A stretch of 57,956 bases of DNA, taken from a virus. Below are positions 2,111-54,850 of the stretch, in pieces. Numbering within the stretch: the stretch's first letter is position 1; each line of letters opens with the position of its first letter. A program made the translations under genes and the position numbers. The notes beneath the pieces were generated by a model that searched no databases, was not told the origin of the DNA, and saw nothing but the letters and a program-made list of their open reading frames with translations. The stretch lies in the IMG/VR virus record IMGVR_UViG_3300038428_000087, positions 1-57,956 of that record; one strand, written 5' to 3'.

Positions 2111-2881
2111 GTGGAAACTGAAACACAGTTCACGTATTTTATAGGGCTAGACTTAGGTCAGGCAAGAGACTATACGGCGGTTGTTGTCTTAGAACACACA
2201 GAGACCTACGCAGTTCCACCACCCAAAACAGGTCGTGATGCTTTCGAGATGGTAGGTATCGGTGATTCTACCGGAAAGCCATCTAGACCAATATCATTTA
2301 CTCCAACAGCAGAAACGTACCATGTTCGGTACTGCCGCCGGTTTCCACTAGGTACACCATATCCAGAAATAGTGCGCTGGACTTCTACACAGGTCAGAAA
2401 TATAATGACTCGCGCGCGGGTTGGACTTATCATTGACGCTACCGGCGTAGGGCGCGCTATTTTAGATATGTTTCGTGACGCACAATTAAAAGTTGTTCCT
2501 GTTAACGTTACCAGCGGACAATACGACAACTTCGCAAAAGGAGTCTGGAACGTTCCTAAGAAAGACTTGGCGAGTGCAACTAAGTTTCTCTTAGACAAAA
2601 AAGTGCTCAAGATAGAAGATCCTACTGATAACACTCCAGGTGACAATGATCTCTACATCTCATCGGCGGAGCTGATAGAAGAAATCCAAAATTTTAGGAT
2701 AAAGATAAATGAGCGAACCAGACACGAAAGTTACGGGGCGTGGCGCGAAAATGATCACGACGACCTAGTCTTTGCTCTGTTTCTTACATGTTGGTGGTGC
2801 TTAAAAAGAAAAGAAAAGGCCGGAAAAGCATATACGCCGGTAATTGTCGGTGAAGACGAAGGAACCAAGCTGCCCGGATAA
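2111..2881 (+). CDS. terL: Terminase large subunit, nuclease half
   Basis: This 256-residue frame starts with GTG immediately after the TAA of the ATPase half and stays in the same frame. It has the RNase H-like terminase nuclease layout: GLDLGQARD with the first acidic residue near 14, GLIIDATGVGR with Asp near 109, and a late acidic cluster (ENDHDDL) near the C-terminus. The stop-start junction (TAAGTG) with a GGGTGG stretch about 10 bases upstream would allow termination-reinitiation. It would cut concatemers during headful packaging. The C-terminal domain is a sure match; whether it works as a separate polypeptide is inferred. Confidence 0.88.
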   Translation: METETQFTYFIGLDLGQARDYTAVVVLEHTETYAVPPPKTGRDAFEMVGIGDSTGKPSRPISFTPTAETYHVRYCRRFPLGTPYPEIVRWTSTQVRNIMTRARVGLIIDATGVGRAILDMFRDAQLKVVPVNVTSGQYDNFAKGVWNVPKKDLASATKFLLDKKVLKIEDPTDNTPGDNDLYISSAELIEEIQNFRIKINERTRHESYGAWRENDHDDLVFALFLTCWWCLKRKEKAGKAYTPVIVGEDEGTKLPG

Positions 2882-2904
2882 TTGAATATAGGAACAAGAC
2901 ATAA

Positions 2905-4689
2905 ATGCCCTCGAAAAAAGAAGAAACTAACGGTATAACGTCATTTAACGAGAACTCTTCACTTACTAATTTTACCAAAGCGAACCAAACTCCTGAAGAC
3001 GTAAAGAAATTAGTCGATCTCCAGGACCAGCCGTTTACGCCTCAAGGCTTGCCTACGCTGGGTTCAGGCGACTTAATGGGTGTCGGCCCATCCAGCCCAG
3101 GTCATCCTGCTCAAATTAATTACTTCGCAGAGTACGGCACTACCGGCCTGATGTACATACCTCCGTATGTATATGAAGAATGGCTGACTGAGCTCCAATA
3201 CACTCGCGGCGTCCGGATGTACAAAGAGATGTACACGATGGACGCTATTATTTCATCCATCTTTTACGCCGTGGAAATGAGCGTTAGAAGCGTTAATCTT
3301 TGGTGGGAAACCGCCGGAGCATCAGATGAGGACTTAAAAGCACTTCAATTTTACGAAGAGTGTTGGGAAGATATGAGCGTTAATCCACAAGACCTCGTAT
3401 CAGAAATTCTCAGCATGTTTATTTTCGGGTATCATCTCGCGGAGATAGTGTATAAAAAGAGAGAGGGCCCGCATCCTGAAGACAGCACGATAGATTCAAA
3501 TTATGACGATGGCCGCGTTGGGTGGAGAAAGTTTGCTACTAGGGCCCAAGAAACACTACTTAATTGGGACTTTGACGTTAACGGTGGAGTACGAGGCTTT
3601 AGGCAACTTGCGCCCCCGCATTTTATAATCACAGAGATACCGATAGAAAAACTGCTGCTTTTCAGAGTCAAACCGCGTAAATCCAATCCCGAAGGCGTCT
3701 CAATGCTTCGCGGGGCGTATCGGACGTATATGTTCAAAAAACTCGCTGAAGAAATAATGATGACGGGCATTGAGCGTGATTTGGCAGGCGTTCCGATCAT
3801 ACGGGCCCCAGGTGAAATAATAACCGGAGTAGATGCTAATTCTCAGTCTATGATGACCACGCTCACGCGCATCGTCAGGAACCTAAAACGAAACCAGGAC
3901 GAGGGCATTGTACTACCGTCTAACAACTATTCATCAGCAGACGGCGGCGGATTGATGTATGACGTCCAACTTATCGGCCCGCAATCGCAGAGGCAGTTCG
4001 ATATCGTTGGGATTATCCAGATGTTCTCTAAGTGGATAGCCATGACGATGTGTGCTGACTGGTTGATGCTCGGACAGGACGCTATAGGGTCATACGCGTT
4101 AGCGCAGACCAAGAACGATATGTTTGCGATGACGATTTCAACGATTCTCGATTCAATTTGTCAGGTCTTTAACTCATACGCAGTACCTCGCTTAGCGCAG
4201 CTTAATCCAGACGTAAACCCGGAAACGTTACCTAAACTCGTTCACGGCGATGTAAATACCGCACTGATAAGCGATGTCGGGATATTTTTAAACAACGTCG
4301 CGCGGGGCGGAGTTGAGATTCCAAACGACGTGCAATTTAGAAACGCCCTGTGGGATATGGTAGGACTTCCAAAAGAACCTGAACCTGAAGGCGAAACTGC
4401 TACGCCGGTGGATTCGTTATTACCTGGACAAACAGCCCAGAGATCAAGAGAACGAAACCAGAGGATAAACGAAGAGACGCCGTTCAGAGGAAAGCCACCA
4501 CGGGCGGTAGTTCAAACTCCTGGTCCAGTGAAACGGTCTGCTACAGTCGAAAAAATAACAAAACAACAGCCTAGTGTTTCAGACGTCCATGTAAAGCGGC
4601 CAAGTGAAGACATATCAGTTGCGTATCTACAGGGGACTAAACCAAAAAAGAAGCGAAAGAAAAATGGCAAAGGAACTGCTGGAAGTTAA
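2905..4689 (+). CDS. Portal protein
   Basis: 594 residues. The core (YKEMYTMDAII followed by VRSVNLWW and later FGYHLAEIVYKKREG) matches the Mu gp29/DUF935-like portal superfamily, and the gene lies directly behind terL. It would form the dodecameric vertex ring through which DNA is pumped. The C-terminal 90 residues are low-complexity, rich in Pro, Lys and Arg. They contain a segment at residues 555-576 (QPSVSDVHV ... ISVAYLQ) that strongly resembles residues 50-71 of the capsid candidate. The tail then ends in a basic KPKKKRKK stretch. The portal call is firm from sequence plus position. Confidence 0.85.
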   Translation: MPSKKEETNGITSFNENSSLTNFTKANQTPEDVKKLVDLQDQPFTPQGLPTLGSGDLMGVGPSSPGHPAQINYFAEYGTTGLMYIPPYVYEEWLTELQYTRGVRMYKEMYTMDAIISSIFYAVEMSVRSVNLWWETAGASDEDLKALQFYEECWEDMSVNPQDLVSEILSMFIFGYHLAEIVYKKREGPHPEDSTIDSNYDDGRVGWRKFATRAQETLLNWDFDVNGGVRGFRQLAPPHFIITEIPIEKLLLFRVKPRKSNPEGVSMLRGAYRTYMFKKLAEEIMMTGIERDLAGVPIIRAPGEIITGVDANSQSMMTTLTRIVRNLKRNQDEGIVLPSNNYSSADGGGLMYDVQLIGPQSQRQFDIVGIIQMFSKWIAMTMCADWLMLGQDAIGSYALAQTKNDMFAMTISTILDSICQVFNSYAVPRLAQLNPDVNPETLPKLVHGDVNTALISDVGIFLNNVARGGVEIPNDVQFRNALWDMVGLPKEPEPEGETATPVDSLLPGQTAQRSRERNQRINEETPFRGKPPRAVVQTPGPVKRSATVEKITKQQPSVSDVHVKRPSEDISVAYLQGTKPKKKRKKNGKGTAGS

Positions 4690-6015: not shown

Positions 6016-6621
6016 ATGAAGTGTTCTAAATGCGGTCGAGAAGCTGAAGACGCGAAGTTTAAACAGTGTAGTGCATGCCGCGAGAGTTATCGCAATTATC
6101 GTAAGCAACCCAAATGGATAGAGTACAACAGAAATTACCAACGCGAATGGATACGCACGCATAGAAAAGTACCTCCAGAAGGATGCTGTATCAGATGTGG
6201 CAAGCCGTTAGAATCTAATCTATTCGCAAAATGTGAGCAATGCCTCCAAAGTTCACGAGATTGGTTCTCTTTAAATCCCGACAAGGCTCTGAAATATGCG
6301 CGTAAGTCACGTGAAGCGAATCATGATAGACATCTGAACTATATACATAACTACCGGGCCCGGAAAAAAGGTAATGGCGGCACATTCACCTTTAAAGAGC
6401 TAAACGAGTTATTTGAACAACAAGAAGGATTCTGTTATTATTGCGGTGAATTACTTTATGCATCATTTGACAGAGAGATTCACATAGAGCATAAGATTCC
6501 AATATCTCGCGGAGGTTCTAATGATATCACGAATATTGTACTAAGTTGCGCAAAATGCAATCTTAGTAAAGGCGCAAAGACCGATGTGGAATTTTTAAAA
6601 TTGGTAACAAAGCAAAAATGA
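6016..6621 (+). CDS. HNH endonuclease with N-terminal zinc ribbons
   Basis: 201 residues. Two CxxC...CxxC ribbons occupy about residues 3-21 and 56-75. A C-terminal HNH module follows: FCYYCGE, then IHIEHKIPISRGGSNDITNIV, then CAKCN with a KG tail, the usual zinc-bound HNH layout. It sits between portal-linked and prohead genes, a typical place for a free-standing homing endonuclease, though HNH proteins can also assist terminases. The start overlaps the stop of a 13-codon frame (ATGA), and the stop overlaps the next gene. Confidence 0.85.
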   Translation: MKCSKCGREAEDAKFKQCSACRESYRNYRKQPKWIEYNRNYQREWIRTHRKVPPEGCCIRCGKPLESNLFAKCEQCLQSSRDWFSLNPDKALKYARKSREANHDRHLNYIHNYRARKKGNGGTFTFKELNELFEQQEGFCYYCGELLYASFDREIHIEHKIPISRGGSNDITNIVLSCAKCNLSKGAKTDVEFLKLVTKQK

Positions 6622-7970
6622 AAGAAGAAATCGCTGTTGAAAAGGAATCCAAACCTAAGCAATATTCCCAGGAATACATGGACGCACTTTTAGAAGGCGT
6701 CAGGCAGTATGTACCTCCGCACGTAATGGAAAATCTACACAGGCAAGCGTTACCTCGTGCCGGTGGCAAAGCAAGTGCCAATGCACGCGCAGCTCGAAAT
6801 GCTGCTCAGACCACTGAAGCTAGTCAAGCACAAAATACACAGGCCGAAGTAAACGCAGAGGTAGAGAAACAACCGATACCGGCAGACATAACACCAGTAC
6901 CGTTACCTACGAATGAAAAACCGTTAACACCTCCTGCACCACCGCAACTGCAACCGGAAACGTGTGCAGAGGGCGATGAAGCATGCGAGGCTTCTGGGTC
7001 AGGTCCAGAGCAATCTACACCCGTACAACAAGGTAAAAGTAAAATGGATAAGGAAGAAATAGATAAAGATGCACACGGTAAGCAGGGCGCACCCATAGCT
7101 GATACTAATGCATGGGATGCAGGTGCAGCTCAAAAGCGATTAGTGGCGTGGGCATCAGATAGTGATGGCAATATCAACTTTGGCAAACTCAAGCGAGGCT
7201 ATTTGTGGAGCGCACCGGGAGCAGATAAACTAGGAGATCTTAAATTCCCTGTCGCAGATATCATCAACGGACAGTTTAAGATAAGCGCAGCAGCTTTATC
7301 GGCAGCAGCAGGTCGTATTAACCAAAGTAAAGGAATACCACCCGATGAGCTCGCTTCAATGAAAGCCACGCTTAGAAGCTACTACAAAGACATAGGTGAA
7401 GACGCACCGGATAATATCTCAAAAGCAAGCGATGAGGACTTACATCCGGATTGTCAGAAGGTAGCGGACAACTGCATGAAACTGAAATCCGGCAAAGGCA
7501 TCTCTAAAGCAGATGTTCCGACCTACATAGGCAAACGTCCGATACTTACCTTCGTCGCTGCATCGCCAGGCATCATGGAGTCTATCAGGAAAACCGCTTT
7601 GGCAGGAGCTACAGGCAAGACATTCAACGATGAATACCTGACTCCTTTAGGCCTTACGAGAAACGACGTTGCGATTACCTATCTTGTCCCGAATCTGCTA
7701 AAAGACGAAGGCGGGAAAGTCAGAGAACCAACTGCCGAAGAAATAGAGAAGTGGCAACCCTGGTTCACCGAAGAAATCGAAAAGATTGAAAGCGGTAATA
7801 AGCTGCCAATAATCGCACTCGACCACACGGTGAAAAAAGCGTTAGATAGAGAAGTTGAATTTACACTGCCTCATCCAAACTCACTATATACTCCGCGAAC
7901 AAAGGATGAGCTGCAAAGGAAGAGATATCAGGTATCAAAGGCTCTCGAAGCTAGATACCGAAAAAACTGA
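6618..7970 (+). CDS. Prohead-locus protein with uracil-DNA-glycosylase-like domain
   Basis: 450 residues. The first 130 are low-complexity (Ala, Pro, Gln). Residues about 150-260 form a domain seen beside prohead proteases in other phages (AWDAGAAQKRLVAWAS ... KLKRGYLWSAPGAD ... FPVADIING). Residues about 305-430 resemble family-4/5 uracil-DNA glycosylases: FVAASPG in place of GEAPG, TGKTFNDEYL like the TGRPF loop, an ITYLVPNLL strand, PTAEEIEKWQPWF, and HPNSLY like the HP[AS] motif. Changed motif-A residues make activity uncertain. The frame ends in an A AAA AAC heptamer directly before TGA, and the -1 frame runs into the protease below. Confidence 0.75.
   Translation: MKEEIAVEKESKPKQYSQEYMDALLEGVRQYVPPHVMENLHRQALPRAGGKASANARAARNAAQTTEASQAQNTQAEVNAEVEKQPIPADITPVPLPTNEKPLTPPAPPQLQPETCAEGDEACEASGSGPEQSTPVQQGKSKMDKEEIDKDAHGKQGAPIADTNAWDAGAAQKRLVAWASDSDGNINFGKLKRGYLWSAPGADKLGDLKFPVADIINGQFKISAAALSAAAGRINQSKGIPPDELASMKATLRSYYKDIGEDAPDNISKASDEDLHPDCQKVADNCMKLKSGKGISKADVPTYIGKRPILTFVAASPGIMESIRKTALAGATGKTFNDEYLTPLGLTRNDVAITYLVPNLLKDEGGKVREPTAEEIEKWQPWFTEEIEKIESGNKLPIIALDHTVKKALDREVEFTLPHPNSLYTPRTKDELQRKRYQVSKALEARYRKN
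7961..7967 (+). promoter_or_regulatory. Candidate -1 ribosomal frameshift site (A AAA AAC)
   Basis: In the 0 frame the codons are CGA AAA AAC TGA, so the heptamer has the X XXY YYZ register and abuts a stop. After a -1 slip the next codon is CTG 7967, and that frame stays open for 161 codons to 8452, covering the protease frame. No ATG, GTG or TTG precedes TTG 8093 in it. The alternative is one lost or gained A in the A6 run. Confidence 0.55.
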
Positions 7971-7987
7971 TAAAACGTCCTGAGAAA

Positions 7988-8001
7988 TTAAGCCAGATTA
8001 A
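7988..8001. promoter_or_regulatory. TTAAGCCAGATTAA palindromic site 1
   Basis: The site and the bases after it (AACGTCAAAAAACAAG) are nearly identical to the intergenic site at 54793. A TATA-like CTTAAATACT lies about 20 bases downstream at 8021-8030. It may be an operator and promoter serving the protease frame, although it would lie inside coding sequence if frameshifting occurs. Confidence 0.5.
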
Positions 8002-8092
8002 CGTCAAAAAACAAGTAACGCTTAAATACTCTCAGGAGAATTTTGAACCGATACAAAAGCAAGCAGCGGCCTGGCACTACACCGCGCGCCTG

Positions 8093-8452
8093 TTGAAAGG
8101 GACAGACCATCTAGTGTGGGGTGTTGTCTATGAACCGTGCAACGGACCTGTCTGCAAGACCGATACGCAGGGGGACTTTATACGTCCCGATGAACTGCGA
8201 AAGGTCGCGCAGAATTATCTCGCCAATGCCGGTAGAATAGGACTCCACCATCAGAAAGAACTGAGTCCGTCCGAGGCGACGCCTGTGGAGAGCTTCATCG
8301 CGCCCGTTGATATGGTCGTCGATGGTGAACACATCACGAAAGGCTCCTGGGTGCTGTTCACGAAACTAAACGATGCACTTTGGAAACGCGCACAGAGCGG
8401 AGAACTCGGCGCGTATAGCATCGACGGAACAGGTGTGCGCGTAAAAGCGTAA
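8093..8452 (+). CDS. XkdF-like prohead serine protease
   Basis: 119 residues from TTG 8093, but the same frame is open back to 7952 and probably continues from the upstream gene by -1 frameshift. The sequence has the phage XkdF/prohead-protease features: WGVVYEP, DTQGDFIRPDELRKVAQNYL, the LHH pair with the catalytic-type His, a Ser followed by VESFIAPVDMV, and KGSWVLFTKLNDALW. It would cleave scaffold and capsid proteins during maturation. The downstream scaffold gene and nearby capsid gene support this. There is no convincing Shine-Dalgarno site in front of TTG. Confidence 0.75.
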   Translation: MKGTDHLVWGVVYEPCNGPVCKTDTQGDFIRPDELRKVAQNYLANAGRIGLHHQKELSPSEATPVESFIAPVDMVVDGEHITKGSWVLFTKLNDALWKRAQSGELGAYSIDGTGVRVKA

Positions 8453-8476: not shown

Positions 8477-9472
8477 ATGGTAAACGACAAAGATTATTCA
8501 ACTGGCGTACCTAGCGTCGCTCTCGAAAAAGATACTGAACTTGTCGATACCGAAGTTAATTCCGTTCACCTCGTAACACGCGGGGCGAACCGTAAGAAAC
8601 TTCATTTGGTCAAGTCAGAATTAAAACGCGCACCAGGATCTAATTCTATGGCAGAAACACACGAACCAGCGTTCGCTATCGACGTCCTTAAAAATTATCA
8701 CGAGGAAGGACTGGCGGACAAAATAGAAAAAGGGATTCCTGGGCTACAACCTGAAGCGATGGAAGTAGGAGAGGCCATGGTCACTCTTGCCAAATCTGTT
8801 GCTGAAGAACTCCCCGCAAACTTCTTTGATGAGATCTCGTCTATCGCAGGTTTTCAGAAAGCCAGCACTAAGAAAGCGAAGCCTACTGAGGACGACGATG
8901 ACGATGATGATGACGGTTGCGATGGAGACGACGGAGCTCAGAAATCAAAGGCAACGAAAATGAAAAAGAGTATAGAAAAAACCCTCGAAAAGATCGAGAA
9001 AGAGGAAGACCTTGATCTTCTACCTGAAGATGTGCAGAAGGCCGTCCGTCCGATATGGAAGGCCCTCGTAGAGAAGGACGAGCGCATCGCCAAGATGGAA
9101 GAGCAAAAGCGTGAAGAGGTTTTTCTTGCGAAGGCAGCGCAGTACACCCGTATTGCCAAAGGTGCTGATTTCGTCAATTTGATGAAAGACGCAGCCGATT
9201 ACCTCCCAGAAAAGTCCTTCCAGGCATTTATTCATCTTCTCGACGCTCACGAGGAAATGCTTAGAAAAGGCGACCTGTTCGCAGAGTACGGCAGCTCGCT
9301 CGAAGGCGACGCATCGAACCCACTTGTTAGGTGGGATGCAGAAGCCAAAGCACTGCAGAAATCAGCAGGGATAACGTACGAACAAGCGTACACCGACGTT
9401 GTGCACGCAGACCCAGAAGGGTACAAGGAAGTCCTTAATCACAACCTAGCCGCATCACGAGGTGAGTTCTAA
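8477..9472 (+). CDS. Capsid scaffold-like protein
   Basis: 331 residues. It begins with a segment typical of protease/scaffold partners (VNSVHLVTRGANRKKLHLVKS), followed by predicted helices, an Asp run (8895-8915) and long charged helices. An in-frame ATG at 8648 (MAETHEP) could give a shorter scaffold, as in nested protease/scaffold genes. Between prohead protease and capsid is the classic scaffold position. The stop overlaps the next start (TAATG). No single catalytic motif is visible. Confidence 0.65.
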   Translation: MVNDKDYSTGVPSVALEKDTELVDTEVNSVHLVTRGANRKKLHLVKSELKRAPGSNSMAETHEPAFAIDVLKNYHEEGLADKIEKGIPGLQPEAMEVGEAMVTLAKSVAEELPANFFDEISSIAGFQKASTKKAKPTEDDDDDDDDGCDGDDGAQKSKATKMKKSIEKTLEKIEKEEDLDLLPEDVQKAVRPIWKALVEKDERIAKMEEQKREEVFLAKAAQYTRIAKGADFVNLMKDAADYLPEKSFQAFIHLLDAHEEMLRKGDLFAEYGSSLEGDASNPLVRWDAEAKALQKSAGITYEQAYTDVVHADPEGYKEVLNHNLAASRGEF

Positions 9473-10324: not shown

Positions 10325-11491
10325 ATGGCAACAAATTCTCAAAGAAACTTCGCCTCGATCACGCCGAACTATGGACTCTACGGAGCTGCGAAACGTCTTA
10401 CCAAAGCGGGTCTTATCGAAAGCCCTGCCGAAGCATGGACAATGCCAAGTCACGTTTCGCTCACCAAGAGCCAGCCAAGCGTCTTCGATGTGCACGTTAA
10501 TGTGCCCAATACAATTTTTAGTATTGCGTACATCCAAAGCCAAACCAACTTCAGGGCAGCCGAGATCTTTCCACTCATCCCTGTGATGAAGAAATCTGAC
10601 TACTACGTCAGCTACACGAAAGACTACTGGTTCACGAATGAAGCTAAAGTTCGGCTAGACGGTTCAGAGACAGCAGGAACGGGCTACGGCCTCAACATGA
10701 AAAACGTCTATATGTGCGACGTTTGGGGCCTGCACGTTGACCTAGGCGACATGGTATCAGCTAACGCCGATGCACCGCTTAACATGCAGCGTGATATCTC
10801 CCTGTTCTTGACGCAGAAGCTCCTGCTCGCCAGGGAAATGCAGTTCGTCACCAACTACTTCACGAACGGAGTATGGACAACCACCGAAAACGGCGCAGCT
10901 AACGGCGGCGGCGGCCAGTTTGTGTTCTGGGATGACCAAACTAACAGTACGCCTATCGAAGATATACGAAAGTTCAGACTCAACATGGCGCAACAGACGG
11001 GCTTTGTTCCTAACACCCTCGTAATTGGACCACAAGCCTACGAAGCGCTCATTGTCCACCCAGAAATCCTCGAAAGGATTAAATTCGGTGGAACGCCAGG
11101 TGCGCCCGCAGTTATATCAGAACAGGCTCTTGCTCAGGTATTCAGCATCGACAGAGTGATTGTGCCTATGTGCGTGGTTAACTCCGCCGCAGAAGGTTCA
11201 GCATCGCCAAGCATGGGCTTTGCATACGGCAACGATGCGCTGCTCTGCTACAGCAACCCAACACCCTCGATACTTACTCCATCTGCCGGGTACACGTTCG
11301 GATGGAACGGATACCTCAGCTCCGGTGGGCCGTATCAGGATATAGTCGGTTCTGGCGGTGCAGGTTGGTTCGCTGTCCGGAACTTCCGCATGGAGTGGAG
11401 ACGCGCCATGAGAATGGAAGCAGAGATGGCGATGGGCATGGAAATCATAGCTCAAGACCTCGGATGCTTCCTGAACGGTGTAATTAGTTAA
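10325..11491 (+). CDS. Major capsid protein (HK97-fold candidate)
   Basis: 388 residues. The N-terminal arm contains QPSVFDVHV ... FSIAYIQSQTNFRAAEIFPLIPV, resembling the 'vSvayiq..nFia..vFP.vpV' entry of siphovirus capsids. A long central helix region (MQRDISLFLTQKLLLAREMQF) follows, and a late region (FRMEWRRAMRMEAEMAMG) matches the P-domain and C-terminal part. Position after protease, scaffold and decoration genes is canonical. It would form the icosahedral shell. The shared N-arm motif with the portal C-terminus is unusual. Confidence 0.85.
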   Translation: MATNSQRNFASITPNYGLYGAAKRLTKAGLIESPAEAWTMPSHVSLTKSQPSVFDVHVNVPNTIFSIAYIQSQTNFRAAEIFPLIPVMKKSDYYVSYTKDYWFTNEAKVRLDGSETAGTGYGLNMKNVYMCDVWGLHVDLGDMVSANADAPLNMQRDISLFLTQKLLLAREMQFVTNYFTNGVWTTTENGAANGGGGQFVFWDDQTNSTPIEDIRKFRLNMAQQTGFVPNTLVIGPQAYEALIVHPEILERIKFGGTPGAPAVISEQALAQVFSIDRVIVPMCVVNSAAEGSASPSMGFAYGNDALLCYSNPTPSILTPSAGYTFGWNGYLSSGGPYQDIVGSGGAGWFAVRNFRMEWRRAMRMEAEMAMGMEIIAQDLGCFLNGVIS

Positions 11492-19164: not shown

Positions 19165-19533
19165 ATGGTTAATCCTACTTTATTTACGGCAATAACGCCG
19201 ACACAAAGCGGTGCTGCGTTAACATACACGGCGGCTTCCGCGAGTTCGACAGGCGACCTCGTGCCGGTGGCACTATTCGGCATGACGGTTGTTCTCATTA
19301 AGAACTCCGATGCCGGAAGTACGCACACGGTAACGTTCGCATCGCAGGCAGACCAATGGGGCAACGTGGTTAGTAAAACAGACACGGTTGGGGAAAGCGG
19401 CACGTTAGCAGTTCAGCTCTCGCCGCCTGCTCGATGGTGTAATACCGCAGCAGGAAACACCTGTGCAGTTACTTACGATGCATATGCTGACCTGTCTATT
19501 GCAGTGTTGAACGTTCCCTGGCAGTCCATATAA
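19165..19533 (+). CDS. Small beta-rich virion protein
   Basis: 122 residues with a strong AGGAGAAAAAAG site. Thr/Ala-rich beta strands (VVLIKNSDAGSTHTVTFAS) recall small phage decoration proteins. It sits between tail tube and head-tail joining genes. No family recognised with certainty. Confidence 0.6.
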   Translation: MVNPTLFTAITPTQSGAALTYTAASASSTGDLVPVALFGMTVVLIKNSDAGSTHTVTFASQADQWGNVVSKTDTVGESGTLAVQLSPPARWCNTAAGNTCAVTYDAYADLSIAVLNVPWQSI

Positions 19534-22038: not shown

Positions 22039-22482
22039 ATGTCAGACGAAAATGAAGGTTCTCGCCAGGCGCTTGACGCTGATAGGCGACAGTATAGGAT
22101 TGGTAAAAACGTAACTGAAGTTGTCGAAGTAAAGCTCGACCACGTCAGAAAGCTAACTTTTCGATCAAAAGCTCTTAGAGAGATGGAGCGGACGCTAAAT
22201 AAGAAGTCTATCCAGATAATAGCAGCGATAAACGAAGCGGACTGGAGCCACGAGGATACCCTTAACCTTATTTGGGCCGGGATGATAACTGAGGCTCCGG
22301 ATATATCGCTTGATGATTTGGATTTGATATGGGACGCTACCCCGATGATGGACAGGGTAAAAGCGTTCGCGGACGTTATCCACGCGGTATCCCGTGCGGT
22401 TGGGCTTCCCGTTGATGAAGAACGGTTTAAGAAGGCTATGGATCTGTGGAATAAGCAACAGGCAGCTACAAAAGGTGTTTAA
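22039..22482 (+). CDS. Tail assembly chaperone-like protein
   Basis: 147 residues with AGAGGTAAAACC upstream. VTEVVEVKLDHVRKLTFRSKALREMERTL opens like siphovirus gpG-type chaperones, which read a short beta segment then 'R.....l..lE...', followed by helices and a DLDLIWDATP segment. The next gene starts two bases after its TAA. No convincing slippery site links the two, so a frameshift product is not claimed. Confidence 0.6.
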   Translation: MSDENEGSRQALDADRRQYRIGKNVTEVVEVKLDHVRKLTFRSKALREMERTLNKKSIQIIAAINEADWSHEDTLNLIWAGMITEAPDISLDDLDLIWDATPMMDRVKAFADVIHAVSRAVGLPVDEERFKKAMDLWNKQQAATKGV

Positions 22483-22483
22483 G

Positions 22484-22846
22484 ATGGATACTGCAACCGA
22501 TGATTCAACTCTTGGATACGCTACTCGTGTTCCAGAACTCGAAAAAGAAGTTAAGGAATTAAAAGCTCGATTGGACGAAAGGGACTACTTCGACAGCCTC
22601 ACTAGAAAGATTAAGGTAAGTAAAGAAACCGAAGAGTTGCTTGACGATTGTCTACGCAAGGCAGGCACATATGAGTGTTATGATTGTGAGAAAGGAGAAA
22701 CCTATGATCAGGTCATAGCACGCCTCGCTCGAAAAGAGTTAGTAGGAACATACTTTGCCGAACTACACGACGTTGACAATTTGGGTATTAAAATCGGTTA
22801 CCAAGCTACTGACATAATGAGGAAAACGCAAATTTTGAAAGGTTAA
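22484..22846 (+). CDS. Hypothetical coiled-coil protein
   Basis: 120 residues from ATG 22484; the longer open frame back to 22394 reads poorly and overlaps the chaperone-like gene. The N-terminus is a coiled coil (VPELEKEVKELKARLDERD), the centre has CLRKAGTYECYDC and the C-terminus GIKIGYQATDIMRK. Function unknown. Confidence 0.6.
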   Translation: MDTATDDSTLGYATRVPELEKEVKELKARLDERDYFDSLTRKIKVSKETEELLDDCLRKAGTYECYDCEKGETYDQVIARLARKELVGTYFAELHDVDNLGIKIGYQATDIMRKTQILKG

Positions 22847-22848
22847 GG

Positions 22849-23421
22849 ATGAAATACAAAGACCAGTTTGATAAAACCGTACCCGTTGAGATCGTAGACG
22901 CTTTGATCGGTAAAGAAGCGATTTTTAAAGAGGTATGCGAAACCACGAAAGCCAGTCCCGAAAAAGTAAGAGAGCTTCTTGATACGATACTTGACCAAGA
23001 AATTCCAGAGAACCTAATTAAAGACTATCAAAACGGCTTACTTACTGAAAAGTTCTGCGCCGGGTGCGGTGCTCAGTGTTGCATGATGAGCGACCCGATT
23101 GCGGTAAACTGGCCTGACGTGCAAAGACTCGCAAAAGGATTAGGTACGAACAATAAGAAAATAGTTAAAGAATATCTTGAACCACACACGCTCTCGGATT
23201 TCTCGCACTTGGAGTATAAGATAAAGAAAACAAAGCCCTGTCAGTGGTTGAATGAAAAGACAAAAAAATGTACGATTTACGAGTTACGGCCACACATTTG
23301 TCGTACATATCCAGTAATCCCGAATAGAGAAAATCCCCGTGAATCAAAACTAGACGCCCCGATATTCTGTAAAGTCACGGCGAGCATGATAAAACAGGAC
23401 ATAATAAACAGGTTAGCATAA
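22849..23421 (+). CDS. YkgJ-type cysteine-cluster protein
   Basis: 190 residues. CAGCGAQCCMM near residue 65 and later CQW....KKCTIYELRPHICRTYP match the YkgJ/CxxCxxCC family, which binds zinc or an iron-sulfur cluster. It lies one base from the tape measure gene inside the tail block, where no such gene is normally expected. Its N-terminal 60 residues are helical. It may be a host-derived gene or a virion or assembly factor with a metal cluster. Confidence 0.75.
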   Translation: MKYKDQFDKTVPVEIVDALIGKEAIFKEVCETTKASPEKVRELLDTILDQEIPENLIKDYQNGLLTEKFCAGCGAQCCMMSDPIAVNWPDVQRLAKGLGTNNKKIVKEYLEPHTLSDFSHLEYKIKKTKPCQWLNEKTKKCTIYELRPHICRTYPVIPNRENPRESKLDAPIFCKVTASMIKQDIINRLA

Positions 23422-23422
23422 A

Positions 23423-25726
23423 ATGGGCGGCGGCGATGTCGTAGGGACTGCGATAGTTAATCTTAAAAGTGATGCCACAAGCTTCCTCAGCGACTTAACA
23501 AGTGCGTTAGGTAAGGGTAAAGGCCTGTTCTCAGACTTCGGTAGCGATATCGCCGGCACAATGAAAGGCGCTGGCGGCATCATGACCGCAGGCATAACCG
23601 CGCCGATAGTAGCCGTCGGAGCGTTTGCCATTAAGAGTGGAGAGATTGTAGAAGATGCTACGTCGTCGATAGCCAAAGCCACCGGGCAACAGGGAGCGCA
23701 ACTTGCTTCTACGATGACGCAGTGGAAAAGCGTGTATGCCTCGGTTCCTTCTTCTGCTGCCGATGTGACAGCGGTTATCACAAAGCTTACGACTTCGTTA
23801 CACCTACAAGGCCAAGAACTTAAAGATACTGCAACAGACGTCCTTAATTATTCAATCGCTACAAAAACCAGCGCATCGTCTGACGCTGCTACGTTTGCGA
23901 CAATGACCAACGCCGCTCACTTGGCGGGCAATGCGTCATTAACTGCTGCACAACTTACCGATATGGCAACCGTAGCGTATCAAAAGACGGGCGTAACTAT
24001 GGACCAGATTTCACCTGCCTTTAACAAAGCAACGGCATCAATGACGGCGATGGGCCTATCTATACCGCAGCAAATTGCTATGTTGGATGGACTGACTCAG
24101 GCAGGGCTCAAGGCTAAACAGGTCACTACGATATTGATGGGAATCGGCCCAGCGGCTAAGGCGGCAGGTGAGAGCTCTAGTGCGTTCTGGCAGCACATGA
24201 TCCAAGACGCTAAAGACGGGGGTACGTACACCGCAGCCGAAACGAAACTGCTTGGCAAGAACGCTGATATGTTCACGGCGGCTGCGAAGTCAGGCAAACT
24301 CAGCAATGACCAGTTAGTCGCATCACTACAGAATAGCAAAGGAGCAGCAGATAAAGCAGGCGAAGCCTCAGAAACATTTGGTGAGAAGTTAACCAAATTC
24401 ACCCATCAAGGAGAGATGGCGCTTGCTCCGTTGGGTATCACGCTCATCAATATAGCAACGAAACTCCTTGATGCAGCAGGGCCGGTTATAGCATTTGTCG
24501 GAAAGTTATTAAGCCTCTTTTCTGAAATGCCTGAGCCTATCCAGCTTATCGTTATCGCCATTGCTGGAATAGCCGCAGCCATTGGGCCGGTGCTGATGTT
24601 AATAGGGATGATGGCACCTGCGATCGGACCAATAGTCACGATATTAGGTATGATGGGTATCGAGATAGACATGAGCGCACTCGCCGCTGGCGGTCTTACT
24701 GGGGCACTTGGCGGGGCGGCGGCGGCAGCGTGGGCGGTCAGCATCCCAATCATGGGGATGGAACTTCCGCTAATAGCTATTATCGCGGCGGTCGTAGTTA
24801 TCGGCGCAATCCTTTATCTATTATATACCCGATTCAAACCCTTCCACGATGCAGTGCAAGCAGTGTTGGGCTGGGCTAAAAACCTTGTCAGCACCCTTCA
24901 GAACCTTAATTGGGGCAGCGCATTTAGTGGGGTCGTGGCTACAGTAGAGAGCATAGGAGGTAAACTTTGGAACTCCATCGTGAGTGCAGTAGGTGGATTC
25001 GGCTCGTGGTTATGGAGTCTTATCTCAGACCTCCCATCAAAATTATGGTCTGCGTATATAGGTATTTGGACTCAGATAGGCTCTTGGTTATGGGGTGAGA
25101 TATCGGGACTTGCCGAGAAAGCGTGGAATACGTATATCGGTATCTGGACAGCAATAGGCTCATGGTTATGGGGTTTGATCTCACCGCTTCCTGGGGAGTT
25201 ATGGGGCGGACTACAGAGCGCCCTTGGTGGATTTGGAAACTGGCTTTGGAACCAACTCACTTCAATTCCAGGTAAGTTAGAAAGTGCGATTAATGCGATA
25301 TGGAGCGATGTCGCCAATGCGTTCGTTAATGCGCTCAAAGGGGCAGTATCAGGGGCAGCAAGCAGTATCGTTAGTCCTATACAAAACGCCATCTCTAGCC
25401 TACATCTTCCTGCATTACCAGCAGCTCAACACGGCGGTATCGTTACTAAACCCACATTATTAATCGCAGGCGAAGCAGGCCCGGAAGCGATTACACCATT
25501 AAGCAATGTTAGCGGTGGTGGCTTTTCGGTAAACCCAGGTAGTATAAGTCCGTATAGTCCGGGTGGAAGCGCTGGGCAAGGACAAGGCAACGTTATCATC
25601 TCAGCCGGAGCAATTCAGATTAACAACCCGATTTTAACTTCAAATTCAGCCATTGACACGCTAAGCACAAAAATCGGTTATAAAGTGAATAGCGAGATGC
25701 GGCGAGCAGGATTAAGCAAAGGATAA
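23423..25726 (+). CDS. Tape measure protein
   Basis: 767 residues. The N-terminal 350 residues follow the TP901-type pattern (ATSFLSDLTSAL, then GGIMTAGITAPIVAVGAFAIKSGE, then ADVTAVITKL). Hydrophobic stretches lie near residues 370-430 and 440-470. Trp-rich repeats (GSWLWGLISPLPGELWG type) follow, with the common end motif HGGIVTKPTLLIAGEAGPE. It fixes tail length and is ejected with DNA. At 767 residues a short to mid-length tail is expected. Confidence 0.93.
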   Translation: MGGGDVVGTAIVNLKSDATSFLSDLTSALGKGKGLFSDFGSDIAGTMKGAGGIMTAGITAPIVAVGAFAIKSGEIVEDATSSIAKATGQQGAQLASTMTQWKSVYASVPSSAADVTAVITKLTTSLHLQGQELKDTATDVLNYSIATKTSASSDAATFATMTNAAHLAGNASLTAAQLTDMATVAYQKTGVTMDQISPAFNKATASMTAMGLSIPQQIAMLDGLTQAGLKAKQVTTILMGIGPAAKAAGESSSAFWQHMIQDAKDGGTYTAAETKLLGKNADMFTAAAKSGKLSNDQLVASLQNSKGAADKAGEASETFGEKLTKFTHQGEMALAPLGITLINIATKLLDAAGPVIAFVGKLLSLFSEMPEPIQLIVIAIAGIAAAIGPVLMLIGMMAPAIGPIVTILGMMGIEIDMSALAAGGLTGALGGAAAAAWAVSIPIMGMELPLIAIIAAVVVIGAILYLLYTRFKPFHDAVQAVLGWAKNLVSTLQNLNWGSAFSGVVATVESIGGKLWNSIVSAVGGFGSWLWSLISDLPSKLWSAYIGIWTQIGSWLWGEISGLAEKAWNTYIGIWTAIGSWLWGLISPLPGELWGGLQSALGGFGNWLWNQLTSIPGKLESAINAIWSDVANAFVNALKGAVSGAASSIVSPIQNAISSLHLPALPAAQHGGIVTKPTLLIAGEAGPEAITPLSNVSGGGFSVNPGSISPYSPGGSAGQGQGNVIISAGAIQINNPILTSNSAIDTLSTKIGYKVNSEMRRAGLSKG

Positions 25727-34466: not shown

Positions 34467-36461
34467 ATGCCAATAGACCTTAGCAACTGGAAAGGCACGC
34501 GGGGCGCATTACCGAGCCCGTATGATCCGAGCGACCCCGTATTTCCCAATATCACCGCTGAACAGGCTGCGGCTCTGCCATCGTCAGTAGATCTCCGGCA
34601 CTATGACTCTCCAATCCGAAACCAAGATGGAGTGGGGTGCTGCGTGGCAGCAGCGTCGTGTGGCGTATTTGAATGGCTGGTACGTTATCTAGAACCGTCG
34701 GCGTGGTTTAAGACCAGCATGCTTGCTATTTATTATTGGGCTCGGGCGCTTGACGGCATGCAGAACACAGACGGCGGTACATATCCAAAATCAGCGATTG
34801 TAGCTATGACTAATACCGGGATGGCGCACGACTCGTTATGGCCGTTTGGGTCAGAAGTAAACTGCAACTCAGGCGTTGCGTATCCTAAACCTACGAATGT
34901 TAACACGGCACCCACTTCTGCTGTTACCACTGACGCAGCTAAGAATAAAGTAACGAAAAGCGTTAGCGTGGCGACGGGAACAACGATAGCAGGCAGCGGG
35001 GATAGTGTAATTACTGTGATGGGGCTAGACGATGCAAAAAACGCGATTGCTTCTGGCTACCCTGTCATGTTTATACTTTGTGCAGATGAATATGATGGCC
35101 TTATGAACACATCTATTAAATCAGGACAATCGTATGGGTTGATTCCAAACTTATCAGACTGGACAAAATCACCAGACCACGGGCAGATTGTAATGGGCTA
35201 CGATGATTCGATCACGAACCTTGATAGCTCAACAGGCGCGTTTATCGTAAAAAACTCGTGGTCTACTATGTGGGGCGATTGTGTATCCGGAGACACAAAA
35301 ATCCCGCTACTATCTGGAAAAGATGTACCCATCAGGTCTCTATTAAACGCTGCGCCGTTCTGGGTCTACGCGTATGATACTGACCGAAAGAAGATAGTCC
35401 CAGCGCAAGCGACCGCATGCAAACGTGCACATAAAAACGTTCCGACTGTAACCGTGTATCTCGACAACGATGAACATATCACATGCACGCCGGATCATCC
35501 TTTTTTGTTGCGAGACGGGACATATAAAAAAGCGGAAAAACTCAACGAGGGGGATTCTCTTATGCCGTTCTATCGTTCTTATGACAAAGACGGCTATACA
35601 AAAATCGCGTGTAACAGTACCTTCTCATGGGTACGCGCACACTGGATGATAGCCCGTGAGATGCGGATGTTTGAGGAACACAAAGGACGTGCAGTTATCC
35701 ACCATATTAATTTTGATAAAACAGATAACACACCAGAAAACCTTTTGGTAATGTCGCCAGAAGCACATTCAAGTTACCACTCACAACTCAAAGATAATAC
35801 ACCGATACTAGAAGCTTGGAACCGGAATTATGACAAATTGGTGAAAAATTCTATTAAAAACATCACCGGATATAACGAGCGCCTTAAAAACGGCGAAGTA
35901 GAGATTACAGAGCGGCAGCGGGAAGCGCGACGGAGAAATGCTATCACCCTAAACAAGAGTGGTACTCCAGAAGAAAGAAGTGAAAAAGCCGAACGTGCAG
36001 CGGTCACTAGGAAAAAGAGGGGGCCCGCTGCGTATGCTGGATGCGGGGTATACGAAAGAACTGAAGCACAGTCGAAACAAGCACGTGAAATGTGCTCGAA
36101 ACTTGCAGAGTATAGATGGTACAAAAATGCGGAGTCTGAACCACTATCATATAATGAGTGGGCCGCGACGTATAATCATAAAGTCTTGAAAGTAGAACGT
36201 CACGAGCGAATAGACACCTATGATATATGTGTGCCACGTTACCGCAACTTTGCTACTTCTGCGGGAGTATTCATACATAATTCCGGATACGGCTACCTTC
36301 CGTACGCGTACGCGAACAACAGTGCGATGTACGACGGGTGGATTATCACCGGAGAATCTGAGATCGTTGTACCGACACCTACACCTACGCCTGGTGGCGG
36401 GGGAGCTCCGAATGTAAACATCAACGTAGAGATACGAACCTATCAACCGGGGAATGAATAA
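34467..36461 (+). CDS. Papain-like cysteine protease interrupted by an intein, QPGNE-tagged
   Basis: 664 residues including a 334-residue intein (272-605), leaving a 330-residue mature protease. RNQDGVGCCVAAA holds the catalytic Cys, SPDHGQIVMGYDD the His and VKNSWSTMWGD the Asn of a C1 papain-type enzyme. The intein sits six residues after that Asn, and C-extein SGYGYLPYAY completes the strand. A PT linker and the end APNVNINVEIRTYQPGNE follow. It is paralogous to the protease across the genome junction. Activity would depend on protein splicing. The intein is described separately. Confidence 0.85.
   Translation: MPIDLSNWKGTRGALPSPYDPSDPVFPNITAEQAAALPSSVDLRHYDSPIRNQDGVGCCVAAASCGVFEWLVRYLEPSAWFKTSMLAIYYWARALDGMQNTDGGTYPKSAIVAMTNTGMAHDSLWPFGSEVNCNSGVAYPKPTNVNTAPTSAVTTDAAKNKVTKSVSVATGTTIAGSGDSVITVMGLDDAKNAIASGYPVMFILCADEYDGLMNTSIKSGQSYGLIPNLSDWTKSPDHGQIVMGYDDSITNLDSSTGAFIVKNSWSTMWGDCVSGDTKIPLLSGKDVPIRSLLNAAPFWVYAYDTDRKKIVPAQATACKRAHKNVPTVTVYLDNDEHITCTPDHPFLLRDGTYKKAEKLNEGDSLMPFYRSYDKDGYTKIACNSTFSWVRAHWMIAREMRMFEEHKGRAVIHHINFDKTDNTPENLLVMSPEAHSSYHSQLKDNTPILEAWNRNYDKLVKNSIKNITGYNERLKNGEVEITERQREARRRNAITLNKSGTPEERSEKAERAAVTRKKRGPAAYAGCGVYERTEAQSKQAREMCSKLAEYRWYKNAESEPLSYNEWAATYNHKVLKVERHERIDTYDICVPRYRNFATSAGVFIHNSGYGYLPYAYANNSAMYDGWIITGESEIVVPTPTPTPGGGGAPNVNINVEIRTYQPGNE
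35280..36281 (+). other. Intein with HNH homing endonuclease (334 aa)
   Basis: The insert begins with Cys1 (CVSGDTKI), has block B TPDHPFLLRDG, an HNH module (VIHHINFDKTDNTPENLLVM) and ends DTYDICVPRYRNFATSAGVFIHN with a penultimate His and terminal Asn, followed by C-extein Ser. All splicing residues are present, so it should be active. The length fits an intein with endonuclease. The frame is continuous with both exteins. Confidence 0.92.
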
Positions 36462-44475: not shown

Positions 44476-45618
44476 ATGGACGATATCATGCGTGAACTAG
44501 TAGAAGAGGCCCCGGTCATATTCAAAGACGAACGCACCCTCACCCCACTATACGCTCCAAAGAAGATAGTCGAACGGGATGAGATGATTCGGGAGATAGG
44601 GAAGAACATACGAAAACTGGCACGCGCTCAATTACCACATCACATGTTAATCTTAGGTGGAAACGGCACGGGGAAGACCGTTACGGTCCAATACGTCATG
44701 CACCAGATCAGCGAGGTCGCGGCGTTTTATTACATCCACTTGCATGGCAGCGATGAGGTTCCATTGTATGAGACATTGCGGTATATAGCCGATGATTGTC
44801 TTTGTATGATCCAGGCTAAAGACATCTCTTGGGCTGCCGTTTATGATCAGTTCGCCGACTCTCTACGTCAGCAGAATAAACCACTTATCCTCGTGCTTGA
44901 CGAGTTTGATTATTTTATTACCGGTCCGATGTTCAAGTTGCTCAAGAAGTTGTCACGTAATCCAAACGTCTGTATGATAGGGATAAGCAATGATTATAAT
45001 GTTCTTGACATGGTAAACGACCCAAGCTTTCTTTCTGCCTTCAATCCGCAGCGTGTGGAGTTTCCAGAATACACAGGTGAAGAGCTTGAAACGATCCTAC
45101 AAGAGAGGGCTAAAGAGGCGTTACTCCCTAACACACTGGATGAAATTGTTATTAAGCTGATTGCCGCATTTACCTTAAATAAACGAAGCGGAGATGCTCG
45201 TTATGCGTTGGATCTTTTAAAATATTCTGCAGACAATAGTACCGATAACAACCGAGAAAAGATATTCGAAGAGGATGTGCGCACATCAGTTGAGCGTTTA
45301 GAGCTCGTTTATAATGTGAGCATCGTCACGCGTTTGCCTCCACAACTCAAGCGCATCGCTGCCCAGGTAGTGAAAAAAGAAGTAATCAAACGCAGTGAGG
45401 TGCTCGATGCGTATAACAAAGCAGCTAAGCGACATGGCTTTGCGACGCTTTCTAGAACTAAGTTTTCATTTTATTTAAGTTCACTTGAGCGGAAGGGTAT
45501 TATCGAGCGAACAAACAAAGGTGGGGGCAGAGGTAAAGGTATCGAGCGGCTTGTGCGGTTGTCTCCTAACCTTGACATTGATGAGACTAAGGAGGCATTA
45601 GTCGATTTTGCGGGATGA
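44476..45618 (+). CDS. cdc6: Orc1/Cdc6 replication initiator
   Basis: 380 residues, normal for the family. Walker A GGNGTGKT (61-68), Walker B LVLDEFD (139-145), sensor 1 MIGISND (167-173), and a C-terminal winged helix (about 300-375, with SRTKFSFYLSSLERKGIIE). It would bind the neighbouring inverted repeats and start replication. The gene lies directly beside the origin, as in most archaea and their large plasmids. No helicase or polymerase is present, so host enzymes must be recruited. Confidence 0.93.
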   Translation: MDDIMRELVEEAPVIFKDERTLTPLYAPKKIVERDEMIREIGKNIRKLARAQLPHHMLILGGNGTGKTVTVQYVMHQISEVAAFYYIHLHGSDEVPLYETLRYIADDCLCMIQAKDISWAAVYDQFADSLRQQNKPLILVLDEFDYFITGPMFKLLKKLSRNPNVCMIGISNDYNVLDMVNDPSFLSAFNPQRVEFPEYTGEELETILQERAKEALLPNTLDEIVIKLIAAFTLNKRSGDARYALDLLKYSADNSTDNNREKIFEEDVRTSVERLELVYNVSIVTRLPPQLKRIAAQVVKKEVIKRSEVLDAYNKAAKRHGFATLSRTKFSFYLSSLERKGIIERTNKGGGRGKGIERLVRLSPNLDIDETKEALVDFAG

Positions 45619-54789: not shown

Positions 54790-54792
54790 AAA

Positions 54793-54806
54793 TTAAGCCA
54801 GATTAA
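54793..54806. promoter_or_regulatory. TTAAGCCAGATTAA palindromic site 6 with TATA box
   Basis: The site plus AACACCAAAAAACAAG equals site 1 at 7988 except for two bases. GTATAAAC at 54827-54834 is a good TATA box 60 bases before the next gene. Confidence 0.55.
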
Positions 54807-54850
54807 CACCAAAAAACAAGAAAAAAGTATAAACTAGTAAATTAATTTTT

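Follow-up and report, generated by a model that had tools for sequence, protein, structure and literature searches.

Comparative evidence for a probable programmed -1 ribosomal frameshift joining a UDG-like protein to an XkdF-type prohead protease in a tailed virus

RESULTS

A UDG-like ORF and an XkdF-type protease lie between the portal and capsid genes

The 57,956 bases analyzed here, hereafter the window, make up one IMG/VR virus record. Its head genes follow the order terminase, Mu-type portal, HNH endonuclease, UDG-like protein, XkdF-type protease, probable scaffold and major capsid. The features of the locus are collected in Table 1.

TABLE 1 Features of the UDG-like/XkdF locus (window coordinates)
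Feature	Position	Strand	Remarks
HNH endonuclease ORF	6016-6621	+	Pfam HNH, E 7e-12; directly upstream of the UDG-like ORF, ATGA overlap with it
Zero-frame UDG-like ORF	6618-7970	+	450 aa, 49.1 kDa
5' hairpin GGTATC...GATACC	7931-7959	+	Predicted; adjoins the heptamer; absent in L021
Stretch open in both frames	7955-7970	+	About 5 codons, between -1-frame TAG (7952-7954) and zero-frame TGA; heptamer inside
Slippery heptamer A_AAA_AAC	7961-7967	+	In phase, abuts the stop; identical in 19/19 contigs
Zero-frame stop TGA	7968-7970	+	Immediately 3' of the heptamer; TAG in L013 and L014
-1-frame ORF	7967-8452	+	Linker and XkdF-type prohead protease; 161 codons past the shift, ending at TAA 8450-8452
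3' stem-loop	7978-8037	+	Predicted 8-bp stem, TCCTGAGA (7978-7985) with TCTCAGGA (8030-8037); -15.2 kcal/mol, z -3.9
AGGAG	8034-8038	+	Apparent relic ribosome-binding site of a once-separate protease gene; mostly within the 3' arm of the stem
12 codons KQAAAWHYTARL	8057-8092	+	Immediately precede the first candidate start; evolve under purifying selection as -1-frame codons
TTG	8093-8095	+	First standard -1-frame start codon; leucine codon inside the conserved core
Probable scaffold protein	8477-9472	+	Next gene; assigned from position and acidic charged composition
Major capsid protein	10325-11491	+	PHROG 1005, E 1e-62

The UDG-like protein comprises an N-terminal helical and low-complexity region, a middle domain, a C-terminal domain with the UDG fold, and a C-terminal helix that reaches the shift site. 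The fold was recognized by Pfam (PF03167, E 2.8e-6), by profile comparison with the family-4 UDG of S. tokodaii (4zbx, E 7e-5), and by Foldseek, in which a model with a mean pLDDT of 58 resembled family-4 UDG and UdgX structures (best E 4e-5). The Glu of the GEAPG motif, which we take to be catalytic in family-4-like UDGs, is missing: AASPG is aligned at this place, and none of the seven sequences compared has a Glu there. Because of this absence in seven relatives glycosylase activity is unlikely, and the protein is probably a UDG-fold head protein, an active glycosylase being improbable. The middle domain (residues 156 to 264) resembles part of an annotated head maturation protease of Thermus phage Riverbug (L137, 2054-3370), with 30% identity.

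The -1 frame matched PF14550 of Pfam (Peptidase_S78_2/XkdF) with an E value of 1.4e-24 and 86.9 bits against a cut-off of 24, and PHROG 3017, head maturation protease, with an E value of 4e-28. H96 and S152 of the protease core, invariant in nine sequences, presumably form the catalytic pair; with a conserved Ser and His and a locus between portal and capsid genes, the protein corresponds to the XkdF type. A fold search of the PDB with a low-confidence protease model (mean pLDDT 62) gave no match at E values up to 0.001.

Elsewhere in the window, an Orc1/Cdc6-like ATPase with lid and winged-helix domains is encoded at 44476-45618. Since this protein carries the Cdc6_lid and Cdc6_C domains, the host of these tailed viruses is probably, rather than provably, archaeal. 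Scanning genome contigs for relatives of the UDG-like alignment and of the Orc1/Cdc6-like protein revealed none, and hence no host; comparison of the latter with phage records gave no match. A papain-family (Peptidase_C1) protein at 34467-36461 is split by an intein with an HNH motif, and the portal ORFs of three relatives (L026, L027 and L029) contain apparent, putative intein-like insertions.

The slippery heptamer is in phase and abuts the zero-frame stop

Read from the sequence, the zero frame ends with CGA (7959-7961), AAA (7962-7964), AAC (7965-7967) and TGA, while the -1 frame is shut by TAG just upstream and is open thereafter until TAA. A reading of this DNA made from its sequence alone (the sequence-only reading) had proposed a slippery heptamer in frame directly before the stop, followed by a -1 frame free of stops for 161 codons, and both proposals were borne out. 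The fusion of about 611 residues and about 67 kDa that it predicted likewise agrees with our count (450 + 161 = 611 aa, 67.1 kDa computed). Its statement that the -1 frame has no ATG or GTG holds upstream of the first TTG but not further down, where GTG at 8114 and later GTG and ATG codons lie inside the protease core. It was right that this TTG is the first possible start in the -1 frame, and no ribosome-binding site was seen for it.

The site conforms to X_XXY_YYZ read in the zero frame and falls within the ORF overlap. We estimated how often this would occur by chance in the 15,538 codons of the 53 ORFs on the plus strand that encode 110 aa or more, the shift-site ORF being counted. In-phase A_AAA_AAC or A_AAA_AAG occurs 8 times, giving approximately 0.003 expected per five-codon overlap, and in-phase X_XXY_YYZ with A or T as Y occurs 38 times, giving approximately 0.012. 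Fifteen such ORFs have a -1 frame extending at least 60 codons beyond their stop, and in 13 of them a start codon lies within 20 codons of the stop. The exceptions are the UDG-like ORF, with 41 codons, and ORF 19165-19533, with 42.

No tail-chaperone frameshift was evident in the window: the tail-chaperone-like ORF at 22039-22482 ends with TAA, and the next gene starts with ATG at 22484. Between the tail-chaperone-like gene and a long ORF (23423-25726) lies a gene for a CxxCxxCC (PF03692) zinc- or iron-chelating protein, at 22849-23421.

The heptamer is constant among relatives

The UDG-like alignment, used as a profile, retrieved 28 viral contigs, 19 of which, from 19 metagenomes, have the overlap. 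The conservation of the heptamer in relatives, suggested earlier as a check, was confirmed in all 19, diverged lineages included. In the five contigs L020 to L023 and L025, the UDG-like protein is only about 48% identical in amino acids to that of the window. The match of the heptamer between the two deep lineages is by itself weak evidence, amounting to two twofold-degenerate codons plus one more third position. To guard against picking out expected forms alone, we also searched 2.9 million viral contigs with a pattern that allowed any synonymous codons for A-R-Y-[RQ]-K-N preceded by Glu, then whichever stop codon, then a loosely defined [KR]RP; as the amino acids were fixed, more distant forms would escape it. 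The 19 matches were the same 19 contigs, in seven nucleotide versions, every one with A_AAA_AAC. The heptamer is constant while the stop (TGA in 17, TAG in 2), the following codons and the linker vary.

The -1 frame is under coding-type selection upstream of any standard start

Codons right past the shift vary (AAA, CAA, CGG, AGG or AAG; CGT, CGC or CGG; CCT, CCA or CCC) with [KRQ]-R-P kept, their differences being mostly synonymous or Lys/Arg. In the KQAAAWHYTARL codons, the window differs from L006, L010, L011 and L013 at two or three positions per pair, all synonymous and all in the third position. The place of the TTG at 8093 is common to all seven variants compared. Over the first 38 to 43 codons past the shift, ATG, GTG and TTG are absent from four of the five clade-1 linker types compared; the exception, L011, has some of these codons within an insertion. 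Judging from these substitutions, clade-1 viruses probably have their -1 frame translated from a point ahead of every standard start codon.

The dN/dS ratio of the protease core was 0.10 to 0.15 in four clade-1 pairs and 0.32 against L021. As changes in the core and at the start and end of the linker are conservative while the dN/dS of the linker is higher (0.3 to 0.9), the ends of the linker appear constrained and its middle does not. The insertion in L011 (in the region 2671-3380) is in frame, about 75 codons long, and lies after the shift; it comes with GGPGSGPHPG next to the shift site and leaves the frame intact, as if a linker module had been added. A 30-base sequence with two free positions occurs twice in the window, in the coding linker past the shift (7986-8015) and in a gap between listed ORFs (54791-54820), against a chance expectation of 0.00.

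Predicted stimulatory RNA structures differ between lineages

Upstream of the heptamer, the six clade-1 variants tested have the same predicted 5' hairpin with one A-U to G-U change, and z scores ranged from -2.6 to -3.2 in the four that were scored. The last 13 codons of the UDG-like ORF show the lowest third-position divergence of 417 stretches of 13 codons (0.10 compared with a mean of 0.59); recombination of this end together with the protease gene, itself less diverged, may account for part of this.

For a downstream structure, the spacing taken as favorable to frameshifting was 5 to 9 nt past the heptamer. The 3' stem-loop of the window starts 10 nt past it and is present in the window variant and L004 but not generally. 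In the L021 type, a 6-bp G+C stem begins 6 nt past the heptamer, although the energy of the region reaches a z score of only -1.3, and GAGG, resembling a Shine-Dalgarno sequence, is read about 10 nt before the heptamer in this type only. The L021-type signal, as predicted, is the textbook layout for a ribosomal frameshift. No downstream stem better than shuffled sequence was found in L006, L010 and L013, and none was significant in L011. We sought hairpins across the variants and rejected a common downstream one, as no shared one was found; the putative stimulatory RNA is lineage-specific.

Relatives have separate-gene and single-ORF arrangements

The other ARRANGEMENTS, separate UDG-like and XkdF genes, was found in nine contigs out of 28. 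Each of the nine starts XkdF with a separate ATG, and the slippery heptamer is absent from the end of the UDG-like ORF (that of L049 was read by eye, and its branch was left out of the UDG tree). Homologues with separate, well-started genes had been named beforehand as a case that would speak against frameshifting. They do exist, but as a different arrangement without the heptamer, and so do not oppose a frameshift here.

In L051 to L053, the UDG-like and XkdF genes are adjacent, and a block CTTAAATACTC...CAGGAGAA precedes the XkdF ATG. The window retains this block as coding sequence (approximately 8021-8040), without an ATG there. Since the block is kept and the ATG is missing, this suggests that the fusion derives from separate genes through loss of the start; we infer the direction of the change. 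The AGGAG is not kept in L006, L010, L013 and L021.

An exchange between arrangements is apparent from L024 and L021. Their flanks are 93 to 94% identical and most of the UDG-like ORF is 90 to 100% identical per 100 bases, but the last UDG-like codons and the protease gene have been exchanged (XkdF 62%). The heptamer travels with this cassette, present in one contig and absent from the other. L024 has an HNH gene between the UDG-like and XkdF genes. Free-standing HNH genes occur at differing boundaries of the same pair of capsid genes: at 7384-7938 in L024, between UDG-like and XkdF in L026, L027 and L029, and upstream of the UDG-like ORF in the window (6016-6621). One of them accompanies the exchange of the heptamer cassette; those of the relatives were read from the sequence and that of the window was identified by Pfam.

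In the distant L061 and L062, UDG and XkdF form one continuous ORF, both above the Pfam cut-offs; in L064, XkdF is above and UDG just below its cut-off, and L068 has XkdF only. The single-ORF proteins (with UDG of L064 just below the cut-off) have the same two domains in the same order as here. Unlike the frameshift pair, they are read in one continuous frame, making the domains one to one.

Other routes to the protease fit the comparative data less well

A homopolymer run sits at the joint, and an indel in the A6 run was the rival feared in the sequence-only reading. That an indel, an assembly error or pseudogene decay produced the junction is refuted for practical purposes: 19 contigs of 19 metagenomes share it in seven nucleotide versions, and the low dN/dS of the core within clade 1 and its invariant His and Ser argue against decay. 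Slippage of RNA polymerase on the A run, which would add one A to part of the transcripts so that ordinary translation makes the fusion, is very improbable. The run, of six A (seven in L021), is rightly placed, but it is short and varies in length between 6 and 7, yet the heptamer, C included, is always the same and in phase, and the layout of L021 suits a ribosomal signal. Polymerase slippage usually requires longer runs.

The protease might instead be made separately, with a TTG or near-cognate codon of the -1 frame serving either for re-initiation after termination at TGA or for internal initiation. ATGA stop-start overlaps are frequent in the window genome and an ATG overlaps the stop (TGATG) in L020 to L023 and L025; re-initiation is therefore a possible additional route in the L021 type only and would leave clade 1 unexplained. 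An internal start could draw on the AGGAG, which is preceded by a TTAAATA box as in the separate-gene relatives. However, clade 1 has ATA, or GCA in L013, at the place of the ATG, and the codon next in line as a start reads ATA in the window and TTA in L006. A start at the first TTG would drop the strictly conserved WHYTARL, part of the first predicted strand in the low-confidence model. With neither ATA nor AGGAG conserved, we rejected an internal start at ATA or TTG as a general route, and a separately made protease is altogether improbable.

Programmed -1 ribosomal frameshifting at A_AAA_AAC, giving the 450-aa UDG-like protein and a 611-aa UDG-XkdF fusion, is very probably the correct explanation. 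In its favor are an in-phase heptamer that relatives conserve, selection of the coding type ahead of every standard start, and the separate-gene and single-ORF counterparts; a single step accounts for all of these observations, and no other mechanism is as well supported. The comparative data, with the heptamer in 19 of 19 contigs and selection in the -1 frame, thus support the frameshift proposed in the sequence-only reading.

DISCUSSION

From one translation start, ribosomes would make two products by slipping at A_AAA_AAC directly ahead of the stop. The majority product would be the 450-aa UDG-fold head protein and the minority product the 611-aa fusion, whose C-terminal part is the XkdF-type prohead protease; we infer the slippage itself and the product ratio from the sequence. 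Because the -1-frame gene lacks a standard start codon, the fusion would be the only evident route to the protease in clade 1. The frequency of slipping would set the dose of protease and the N-terminal part would carry it into the prohead, so that, by analogy, the fusion may serve both to dose and to deliver the protease. In full, the scenario is one of a tailed virus, probably archaeal, with a Gag/Gag-Pro logic, in which a frameshift makes a minority prohead protease as a C-terminal extension of a core protein with a catalytically inactive UDG fold, dosing and delivering it. The arrangement would go back to a free-standing protease gene whose start codon was lost, and in one lineage the former ribosome-binding site would today form part of a stimulatory hairpin. 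We regard this whole picture as an even bet.

If true, frameshifting would control the dose and delivery of a maturation protease, in convergence with retroviral Gag-Pro, and the locus would be a well-conserved addition to the few known or predicted frameshifts of archaeal systems. The existence of three arrangements (separate genes, frameshift and single ORF), with one recent exchange between two of them, would allow direct study of how a recoding signal originates and what it is worth. The literature searched, which includes few subscription journals, yielded no account of a frameshift at a prohead protease gene. To our knowledge, tail chaperones, along with some capsid proteins, supply most of the known cases of frameshifting in tailed viruses.

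The G/GT tail-assembly chaperones of tailed phages and of haloarchaeal HVTV-1, HCTV-1, HCTV-2 and HCTV-5 resemble the present case in pairing a virion-assembly gene with X_XXY_YYZ as the site of a -1 shift. PMC5009743 reports A_AAA_AAC itself as the G/GT shift site of HCTV-2. G/GT sites precede the tape-measure gene and extend a tail chaperone, whereas here the site lies between the portal and capsid genes and adds a maturation protease; the shift site at 7961 is far from the tail-chaperone-like ORF at 22039-22482 and is not directly upstream of a tape-measure gene. Among the archaeal cases listed in reviews are the fucosidase gene, the haloarchaeal virus G/GT genes and magnesium chelatase (PMC8211752, PMC5009743). 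For the alpha-L-fucosidase of Sulfolobus (Saccharolobus), PMC8211752 describes a -1 frameshift at A-AAA-AAT. This is an archaeal shift at an A-rich heptamer, like the one here, but it concerns a host enzyme split in two, whereas here two products of differing domain content would be made.

Among viral head genes, Lactobacillus phage A2 reportedly has a -1 frameshift in its major head protein. The shift yields a second capsid component by extending the capsid protein, with no protease fusion as here. Retroviral Gag/Gag-Pro follows a comparable logic: -1 slippage, in MMTV at the same A_AAA_AAC heptamer as here, links a particle protein to the protease in a minority product. The proteins, virus and host are nevertheless unrelated, and no Gag-like protein was found.
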